30,991 bases of DNA from a virus: positions 1 to 30,991 of the IMG/VR virus record IMGVR_UViG_3300025769_000521. One strand, given 5' to 3'. Below are positions 19,088 to 21,198 of this stretch, piece after piece. The notes under the pieces are model-generated. The model was given only the letters and a program-made list of their open reading frames with translations, was not told the DNA's origin and did not search any database. The position numbers were made by a program, and so were the translations under genes. Numbering within the stretch: the stretch's first letter is position 1; each line of letters starts with the position of its first letter.

Positions 19088-19599
19088 GTCCAGAAATAGA
19101 ATTAGATTTATATGAGATAACTACTGCAGCACAAACTGGTTTATTAAGAGTTACTGAAAGCATTAAATTAAACCAGGATTGGGGTCATAAATATTCTGGC
19201 ACATTAGAAGATAAAATTTCAAAAAGTATTAGTGGAGCTATGGCAGAGATCAGCTTATGCAAGTATTTTGGCATACCATTTGAGTTTCATACAAATGTAG
19301 GTTCAGCTCCTGATGTTAAATACAAAAATTATAATATCCAGGTTAGATCACAAACAGTTAAAAAAAATAATAACAACTCACTTATTATTAGACCTAATGG
19401 TGTAAAGCCAAATGAGATTTATGTATTTATATTAAGTGAAGCTCCCAAATTTACTATTAAAGGTTTTATAAATAGTTCTGCTGTAATTGGTAAAGATAAT
19501 TACTTAACAGACTTTAACCTTGCTAGACCTAAAGTTTGGTCAGTACCTTTAGATATTTTATCACCAATTTTATTATTAAAGGATGGAGCATGGAATTAA
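19084..19599 (+). CDS. PD-(D/E)XK-like nuclease-fold protein
   Basis: The ATG at 19084 overlaps the previous stop and is preferred. The 171-aa product has E55 in GAMAEISLCKYFG, D77 in GSAPDVKY and Q86-V-R88 in YNIQVRSQ, which follows a restriction-endonuclease-like core with Arg in place of the usual Lys. A beta-rich C-terminus follows (YVFILSEAPKFTIKGFI). It overlaps the cytosine methyltransferase by 10 bases, as restriction-modification partners often do. Activity is uncertain because the last catalytic Lys is replaced. Confidence 0.5.
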   Translation: MSPEIELDLYEITTAAQTGLLRVTESIKLNQDWGHKYSGTLEDKISKSISGAMAEISLCKYFGIPFEFHTNVGSAPDVKYKNYNIQVRSQTVKKNNNNSLIIRPNGVKPNEIYVFILSEAPKFTIKGFINSSAVIGKDNYLTDFNLARPKVWSVPLDILSPILLLKDGAWN

Positions 19600-20486
19600 A
19601 TGTTCTTGATTTATTTTCTGGCATTGGTGGTTTTAGTGTTGGCTTGGAAGCTACAGGAAAATTTAAAACTATTGGATTTTGTGAACAAGATAAATTTTGC
19701 CACAAAGTCTTACATAAACATTGGAGTGATGTTCCAATTTATGAGGATATTAAAAAATTAGATGGAACAAAAATTAAAGCAGATGTCATTGTTGGGGGAT
19801 TCCCATGCCAAAGTTTCAGTATTGCTGGTAAGCAAAAAGGCAAAGATGATGAACGATACCTCTGGGATGAAATGTTTAGAGTCATTAAAGAGGTTAAACC
19901 CAGATGGATTATTGGCGAAAATGTCCAAAACCTTACTAACATCTCAAATGGAGAAATCTTGCAAGGAATTTACAATGATTTGGAATCTCAAGGTTACGAA
20001 GTCCAAACTTTTAATATTTCAGCTAGTTCGCAAGGAGCATGGCATAAAAGAGCAAGAGTCTGGATCGTTGCTGCCAACGCCAAGTGCAAGTTGTTACATG
20101 GATGTAGTAGCACCACCACAGACAGTACAAAAAAATTCACAAGGTTGGAGTGTAACAAGAGTAAAGTCAGGGGTGAAATATGGAGCAAAATTAAACGATG
20201 TAGTGAACAAAATTTACAACACACCAACAACAAACGATTCCAAAAATTTAAGTTTTCCGAAAAGCCAAAAAAAAAGAACATCCATAATAGGCAATTTAAT
20301 GAAAGAGCAAGTAATAAATCCTGGTGGGAAACTCAATCCGAACTTTGTGGAGTTCCTAATGGGGTACAATATGAATTACACCCAGATAGAGCCAACAGAA
20401 TTAAAGCACTTGGAAACTCAATCGTACCACAAATCGTTACTGAAATCGGACAAGCAATTATTAAAGCAGAAGAAGAAATAGAATGA
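19590..20486 (+). CDS. dcm: DNA C5-cytosine methyltransferase
   Basis: The ATG at 19590 has AAGGATGGAG upstream and overlaps the previous gene by 10 bases. The 298-aa enzyme transfers methyl from SAM to cytosine C5. Motif I is LDLFSGIGG (6-14), motif IV GGFPCQS with catalytic C73, motif VI GENV (109-112), motif VIII RARVWIV (154-160), and motif X RIKALGNSIVPQ (270-281) after the target-recognition region. All key residues are present. It probably protects phage DNA from host restriction. A long second frame (19762-20481) runs inside it. Confidence 0.92.
   Translation: MELNVLDLFSGIGGFSVGLEATGKFKTIGFCEQDKFCHKVLHKHWSDVPIYEDIKKLDGTKIKADVIVGGFPCQSFSIAGKQKGKDDERYLWDEMFRVIKEVKPRWIIGENVQNLTNISNGEILQGIYNDLESQGYEVQTFNISASSQGAWHKRARVWIVAANAKCKLLHGCSSTTTDSTKKFTRLECNKSKVRGEIWSKIKRCSEQNLQHTNNKRFQKFKFSEKPKKKNIHNRQFNERASNKSWWETQSELCGVPNGVQYELHPDRANRIKALGNSIVPQIVTEIGQAIIKAEEEIE
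19762..20481 (+). CDS. Overlapping +1-frame ORF with methyltransferase-family-like motifs
   Basis: A 239-codon open frame lies wholly inside the C5 methyltransferase gene, one base out of phase. Its translation has motifs I recognise from another type of phage methylase-annotated protein: FTMIWNLKVTKSKLLIFQLV, ESGSLLPTPSAS, NTPTTNDSKNLSFPKSQKKR and GGKLNPNFVEFLMGY. The ribosome site is weak (GAGGA about 12 bases upstream). It may be a true overprinted gene, or a frame that is translated in relatives. Translation here is unproven. Confidence 0.4.
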   Translation: MEQKLKQMSLLGDSHAKVSVLLVSKKAKMMNDTSGMKCLESLKRLNPDGLLAKMSKTLLTSQMEKSCKEFTMIWNLKVTKSKLLIFQLVRKEHGIKEQESGSLLPTPSASCYMDVVAPPQTVQKNSQGWSVTRVKSGVKYGAKLNDVVNKIYNTPTTNDSKNLSFPKSQKKRTSIIGNLMKEQVINPGGKLNPNFVEFLMGYNMNYTQIEPTELKHLETQSYHKSLLKSDKQLLKQKKK

Positions 20487-20665
20487 ACATTTATGGAGAC
20501 ATGAGAACTTGTATTAAATGTGCAGCTAGAGCTGACATAGTAGAAAAAGGTAAAGATTATTGTGCTGATTGTTATTCATTAACAATTTGGAAAATACCAC
20601 TTTCAAAAGTTGGAAAACATTTAGATAAAAAAGAGGGAGTAAAATTAAAGGTGGTAACACCATGA
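20483..20665 (+). CDS. Small zinc-ribbon protein
   Basis: This 60-aa protein has C10-x2-C13 (RTCIKCAAR) and C27-x2-C30 (DYCADCYS), a four-Cys zinc ribbon. It overlaps the methyltransferase stop by 4 bases and the adenine methyltransferase start by 4. It could bind DNA or assist either enzyme; no specific family is recognised. Confidence 0.6.
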   Translation: MNIYGDMRTCIKCAARADIVEKGKDYCADCYSLTIWKIPLSKVGKHLDKKEGVKLKVVTP

Positions 20666-21198
20666 TTCCATTTCCAAAAAAGAAATACAATATTATTTAT
20701 GCAGATCCAGCTTGGCATTATCAAGTTTGGGCAGAGGGTAGCAAAAGAAATGTTACTGCAAAGTACAGTACAATGAATCCACAAGAAATTTGGGATTTAC
20801 CAGTCCAAGACATAGCAGATAAAGATTGCATTTTATTTTTATGGGTTACATTTCCTAAATTATTAGAGGGAATAGAAACAATAAATAAATGGGGATTTAC
20901 CTATAAAACTTGTGGATTTAATTGGGTTAAAAAAAATAAAGTCGCTGATAGTTTTTTTTGGGGTATGGGTTATTGGACAAGAGCTAATACTGAACTTTGT
21001 TTAATTGCTACTAAAGGCAAACCAAAAAGAATTAGTAAAGGAGTTCATCAGGTAGTTTATGAACGAATAAGAGAGCACTCAAGAAAACCAGATTGTATTA
21101 GAGATAAAATAACAGAACTTTGTGGTGATCTACCAAGAATTGAACTATTTGCCAGACAAAAAGTTGATGGATGGGATTGTTGGGGTAATGAAGTATGA
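20662..21198 (+). CDS. MT-A70-family adenine methyltransferase
   Basis: This 178-aa enzyme would methylate adenine N6. The catalytic motif is DPAW (15-18) in YNIIYADPAWHYQVW, a variant of DPPW. Further MT-A70 blocks are ILFLWVTFPKLLEGIETINK, YKTCGFNWVKKNK, FFWGMGYWTRANTELCLIAT and IREHSRKPDCIRDKI, ending in IELFARQKVDGWDCWGNEV. It lies three genes after the PD-(D/E)XK-like gene and in the same operon as the cytosine methyltransferase, suggesting combined protection of phage DNA. It has 4-base overlaps on both sides. Confidence 0.9.
   Translation: MIPFPKKKYNIIYADPAWHYQVWAEGSKRNVTAKYSTMNPQEIWDLPVQDIADKDCILFLWVTFPKLLEGIETINKWGFTYKTCGFNWVKKNKVADSFFWGMGYWTRANTELCLIATKGKPKRISKGVHQVVYERIREHSRKPDCIRDKITELCGDLPRIELFARQKVDGWDCWGNEV

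Follow-up and report, generated by a model that had tools for sequence, protein, structure and literature searches.

M.EcoHK31I and M.EaeI are C5-methyltransferases (C5-MTases) for YGGCCR that consist of two polypeptides, and in M.EcoHK31I the small open reading frame (ORF) lies inside the large one in a different frame. M.AquI is encoded by successive genes. The phage enzymes SPR, phi3T and SPbeta are multi-specific C5-MTases that carry several target-recognition domains (TRDs) on single chains. Published work on M.EcoHK31I placed motifs I-VIII and X on the large polypeptide and motif IX on the small one, with the TRD as part of the large subunit, while M.AquI was found to be split in the variable region, past motif VIII but before the TRD ends, with motifs IX and X on the second polypeptide (PMC3404938). 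In the open-access literature no account was found that treats nesting as general among phage C5-MTases. The locus described here very probably encodes, in one stretch of DNA, both parts of a two-subunit C5-MTase, with the subunit that carries the TRD and motif IX nested in the +1 frame.

The window, i.e. the whole 30,991-base stretch that was analysed, is the record of a marine virus and has the genes of a tailed phage (integrase, terminase, portal, scaffold and major head proteins). The C5-MTase locus is one stretch of it that is open in two frames, here called alpha (frame 0) and beta (+1 frame); the coordinates of both and of their features are given in Table 1. An MT-A70 methyltransferase gene sits just downstream (20662-21198, + strand; Pfam 6.8e-33), so that two DNA methyltransferase loci adjoin, and the short ORF between them (20483-20665) encodes 60 aa with two CxxC pairs.

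Table 1. Features of the nested C5-methyltransferase locus, in positions of the window
Feature	Position	Strand	Evidence or remark
Alpha subunit: frame-0 C5-MTase chain of 298 aa with motifs I-VIII and X	19590..20486	+	Pfam PF00145 2.9e-51; PHROG 363 1.7e-72
Putative beta subunit: nested +1 ORF, 239 aa	19762..20481	+	PHROG 1008 1.4e-19; dual-frame selection in relatives
Alpha motif IV GGFPCQ, catalytic Cys73	19794..19811	+	G70, P72 and C73 invariant in 60 alphas
Beta Trp74	19981..19983	+	Invariant in 89 betas; restricts the alpha Leu codon over it to NTG
Alpha motif VIII region QGAWHKRARVWIV	20031..20069	+	A150, H152, R154 and R156 invariant in 60 alphas
Beta TRD module 1 (LLPTPSASC...VVNKI)	20068..20217	+	Module of 92.5% DNA identity in L012/L194; beta-like TRD-zone substitutions
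Alpha residues 183-260, without predicted fold, over beta TRD and motif IX	20136..20369	+	AlphaFold
Beta TRD module 2 (YNTPTTNDSKNLSFPKSQ...)	20215..20319	+	Common to distant relatives
Beta motif IX GGKLNPNFVEFLMGYNMNYT, same bases as alpha WWETQSELCGVPNGV	20326..20382	+	Profile/motif comparison of betas
Alpha motif X RIKALGNSIVPQI	20397..20435	+	G275 and N276 invariant in 60 alphas

The original prediction, of a long +1 frame within a C5-MTase gene that was unexpectedly open and carried motifs of its own, was borne out on each of these points: the quoted motifs are present and the beta ORF lies wholly within that of alpha. When the frame-0 codons were redrawn synonymously with the codon usage of the window, the +1 stretch held a mean of 10.5 stops and was open in 0/20,000 redraws; with the gene's own codon usage the mean was 4.3 (0.5% open) and under codon permutation 3.9 (0.23% open). 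The longest +1 run in ten other large genes of the window was 35-86 codons, against 239 at the C5-MTase locus. The openness of beta exceeds chance. The motif IX pattern of beta appeared in <0.05% of the synonymous redraws. Beta probably starts internally, either at the ATG at 19762, which is immediately 3' of an in-frame TAG, or at Met29/30 (19846 or 19849). A Shine-Dalgarno-like site precedes Met29/30 only, with none clear at ATG 19762.

Alpha matches Pfam DNA_methylase (PF00145), the main stretch covering positions 2-225 of the 324 in the profile, and also TIGR00675 and PHROG 363. It has the motifs expected of a PF00145 C5-MTase, namely I, IV (PCQ), VI (ENV), VIII and X, but differs from the usual single-chain enzyme in that motif IX and the TRD modules sit in the +1 frame. 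Aligned with M.HhaI, it runs as far as motif VIII and then gives just one more, weak, segment at motif X. The AlphaFold model has high confidence for most of residues 1-165 and for the C-terminal residues 280-297, and the folded part matches M.HhaI and M.HaeIII, at best with 1.5-1.8 A over ~165 columns (1.5 A for M.HhaI). From about residue 183 to 260 the pLDDT is mostly <50 and there is scant secondary structure. On the strength of the M.HhaI alignment and the AlphaFold model alpha is thus a catalytic domain plus motif X, without a TRD fold or motif IX, and the earlier description of frame 0 as a complete methyltransferase with all motifs did not hold.

When searched separately, beta was found to match PHROG 1008 "DNA methyltransferase" over residues 3-212, which agrees with its having been likened to phage DNA methylases; there was no match to Pfam or NCBIfam models. 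It consists of repeated xTPxAxD modules followed by a C-terminal block, GGKLNPNFVEFLMGY, that fits motif IX. The C-terminus of M.HhaI has MGYPDSYK at the position matching this block, preceded within motif IX by RKLHPRECARV. Nearly all betas have 1-5 TRD modules, mostly 2-3 as counted with a loose pattern, and module 1 of the window has 92.5% DNA identity to a later (second-place) module in the relatives L012 and L194. Judged by sequence, the modules appear to vary in number and to move between positions, and each may read one target. Structure prediction for beta was poor (mean pLDDT 65.6, pTM 0.27); a PDB fold search with this low-quality model gave no useful match and a beta profile gave no C5-MTase match among PDB sequences.

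A tblastn search of phages with beta gave 56 records, every one at <60% identity, and in 7/7 phage representatives read in three frames a C5-MTase ORF held beta in its +1 frame. The annotator of Paenibacillus phage Diva had already labelled g50 as 'g49 internal gene'. A sample drawn with a beta profile comprised the best 80 of at least 593 confirmed IMG/VR loci and the best 80 of at least 365 confirmed loci from bacterial genomes, the bacterial loci coming from Bacillota, Pseudomonadota, Bacteroidota, Acidobacteriota, Nitrospirales and others. Beta was nested at +1 within a complete alpha in 73/80 of the IMG/VR loci and 72/80 of the bacterial ones; most of the others ran off a contig, had a single stop in them or escaped one of the motif patterns, and no standalone beta without alpha occurred among these 160 best-scoring loci. 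A second sample was chosen without reference to beta, as the 80 best-scoring viral loci fetched by alpha alignment. Motifs I-VIII and X were found in alpha and motif IX in a nested +1 beta in 77 of these 80, the exceptions being two contigs that end early and one frame-disrupted copy (L291). The offset of beta relative to alpha was always +1 in the loci surveyed. The same plan is seen in enterobacterial prophage MTases of the AYYNEIDP type, and nested relatives give the same pair of PHROG 1008 and PHROG 363.

Individual relatives showed features of their own. For the nested MTase of E. coli ST361 (L025; NZ_CP103704, 1879-3048) the annotation gives two pseudogene fragments, labelled 'missing C-terminus' and 'missing N-terminus', despite a frame 0 that is open from start to stop and a +1 beta frame that is open as well. 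On plasmid pAP1 of Paenibacillus polymyxa (L245; 1166-2656) the part with the TRD and motif IX is apparently tandem-duplicated, the +1 frame having two motif IX blocks with stops between. In Mycobacterium phage Llama (L244; 1543-2302) the annotation divides alpha between gp74 and gp75, which differ in frame; the +1 frame of gp75 contains a motif IX block, NPVWIEWLMGFPPNWT. The N-terminus of alpha in KT997847.1 (L001; 1234-2177) is out of frame with the rest and the pieces were called as separate genes, which from the sequence looks like either a broken gene or a sequence error. Five matches on one chromosome record of a Roseovarius MAG (OX638333.1; L140-L144) have equal match position, identity and E-value and for that reason are probably near-identical copies of the nested MTase, reflecting repeated prophages or an assembly artefact.

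Some relatives are split in a different manner. In L230, L231 and L233 from IMG/VR and in L164 from Brevibacillus borstelensis alpha ends just past motif VIII, and the +1 ORF carries TRD modules followed by motif IX, a WxxEP block and motif X; motif X is on the second polypeptide in these loci and in L243. Profiles made from nested loci find motif IX and then the alpha C-terminal block consecutively in the split +1 ORFs, whereas in the nested loci the two are the same bases read in two frames. Both parts are annotated genes in Arthrobacter phage KBurrousTX, where gp79 (motifs I-VIII) and gp80 (modules, LNPAFVEWMMG and motif X) overlap by 17 bases and the gp80 frame stays open further upstream of the annotated gene. 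The product of gp80 matches PHROG 1008 at 3.7e-87 and is a homologue of the +1 protein that is encoded largely outside an alpha frame. Because the split forms place them there, the parts of beta belong between motifs VIII and X of a C5-MTase. The original prediction had offered overprinting or two protein families that are frame-shifted versions of one ancestral gene; the first of these stood, and the second was rejected, since alpha and the +1 protein are different parts of one enzyme. Apparent in-frame fusions of alpha and beta in L157 and L168 were set aside, as each seems to reflect a one-base disruption of the frame within the TRD. Split relatives have what look like remnants of motif IX when their C-terminal block is read at +1 ('GTLNLIYLE' in L233). 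These would point to a nested ancestor of the split form, but such descent is not claimed, because alpha codon constraint alone could yield them.

Both frames are under protein-level selection in the relatives. Substitution rates by codon position and zone were obtained from 44 independent pairs of relatives, in which the third-position rate of alpha was.35 and.40 where alpha alone was coded and.18, about half, where it lies over beta across motifs IV-VIII. This drop in the upstream overlap, the synonymous constraint that the original prediction had proposed as a check, was seen in 33/34 pairs. It is also visible within the window's own clade (.36 to.20), where the TRD zone is saturated and selection on it is not measurable because TRDs are exchanged there. 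The alpha Leu over beta Trp74 is TTG or CTG in 136/138 loci, against 35% elsewhere, and the alpha Asp over a conserved beta Met is GAT in 135/148, against 40%. These observations bear on the strongest of the alternatives, a programmed +1 frameshift after motif VIII that would yield a single long chain (motifs I-VIII, TRD and IX) and no separate beta. The constant +1 offset would suit such a shift, and in the split relatives a shift past motif VIII would restore the canonical single chain, but the halved third-position rate and the fixed codons over Trp74 and Met lie upstream of motif VIII, where a shift after it has no need of them, and the shifted chain of the nested loci would be without motif X. 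As the constraint from the beta frame reaches upstream of motif VIII, a frameshift is disfavoured and is considered improbable.

It is rather less probable still that beta is real but stands outside the enzyme, for example as a regulator or a separate DNA-binding protein, and that alpha works alone. In favour of this reading, the link between beta and alpha is drawn from sequence and beta has no recognised fold. Against this, alpha is without motif IX and a TRD, the split relatives put the modules of beta exactly between motifs VIII and X, and beta accompanies alpha in nearly all of the loci that were fetched by alpha.

Further downstream in the overlap the pattern of substitution changes. In the TRD zone of the 44 pairs beta position 3, the same base as alpha position 1, changed fastest (.30 vs.21), and it did so again in the motif IX zone (.16 vs.13). 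The shift of the fast codon position is significant (chi2 p ~1e-80 for the TRD), the p-values being indicative because the counts run over related sequences. Amino-acid identity in the TRD zone was.70 for beta,.61 for alpha and.59 for the unused frame in the same pairs, and TRD module 2, which the window has in common with Paenibacillus phages and further distant relatives, had an identity of 67% in beta, against 28% for alpha and 30% for the third frame. That the +1 ORF is an untranslated shadow, conserved through alpha codons or DNA-level recombination, is hardly credible: some +1 motifs do underlie conserved alpha motifs and long +1 frames are less rare with the gene's own codon usage, but the TRD zone is conserved in beta and not in alpha, substitutions track beta codon positions, the motif IX pattern is seldom redrawn and there are beta relatives that lie mostly outside an alpha frame. 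A shadow produced by chance or by alpha constraint was rejected on the redraws, the codon-position shift and the higher identity of beta than of alpha. Overprinting was to have been abandoned if the +1 frame had no independent homologues, was interrupted by stops in close relatives and left synonymous variation unreduced; what was found was a homologue encoded largely outside an alpha frame, a frame that is open in relatives and a reduced synonymous rate.

If the locus does encode a two-subunit C5-MTase with its second subunit overprinted, alpha would bind AdoMet and provide the catalytic cysteine, with motifs I-VIII and a C-terminal motif X, and beta would supply the target-recognition modules and motif IX and so pick the target sequence. 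The two chains would be made from one mRNA at separate starts and would come together as a C5-MTase of the standard two-domain form. Over the TRD, frame 0 would serve chiefly as a linker free of stops, with beta constraining its DNA. We infer that beta is translated and forms a heterodimer with alpha, and that the heterodimer has methylation activity and target specificity. The wider generalisation is likely, though less firmly so than the reading of the locus itself: a large and widespread clade of phage and prophage C5-MTases would be obligately two-subunit. An overprinted +1 gene, made up of TRD modules that can be exchanged and may be multi-specific, would hold all of the specificity, and the catalytic subunit would be a passive linker across the same DNA. 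If specificity does lie in the overprinted +1 gene, then a swap of the recognition cassette rewrites two proteins at once. Such an arrangement would explain truncated-looking or 'pseudogene' phage cytosine methyltransferases and the existence of two separate 'DNA methyltransferase' families in phage databases, and if it is true the alpha gene product assayed alone would probably be inactive. The loci also provide a natural data set on overlapping genes, with dozens of independent pairs of a catalytic and a recognition chain in which selection is seen in both frames.

When compared by published description, the window resembles M.EcoHK31I in having motifs I-VIII and X on the large chain and motif IX on a nested small one. 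It is unlike M.EcoHK31I as published in that its TRD modules lie in the nested +1 frame and not in the large subunit, and it is on this feature, the published assignment of the TRD to the large subunit, that the two are set apart; if the TRD of M.EcoHK31I were on its beta as well, the window would be of the same kind. M.AquI shares with the window a TRD (its distal half in M.AquI) and motif IX on the second polypeptide, but has motif X on its small subunit, whereas in the window motif X is on alpha and beta is fully nested. The M.AquI-like form is represented among the relatives by L230, L231, L233, L164 and Arthrobacter phage gp79/gp80. As in SPR, phi3T and SPbeta there are several interchangeable modules between motifs VIII and IX; unlike those single chains, the modules are here in an overprinted subunit, and multi-specificity is putative. 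PHROG 1008 and PHROG 363, which are listed as separate families, are here beta and alpha of one locus. The window thus has the nested plan of M.EcoHK31I together with the domain logic of M.AquI, and what is new here is that the overprinted frame holds the TRD itself and that a large family is, as a rule, organised in this way.
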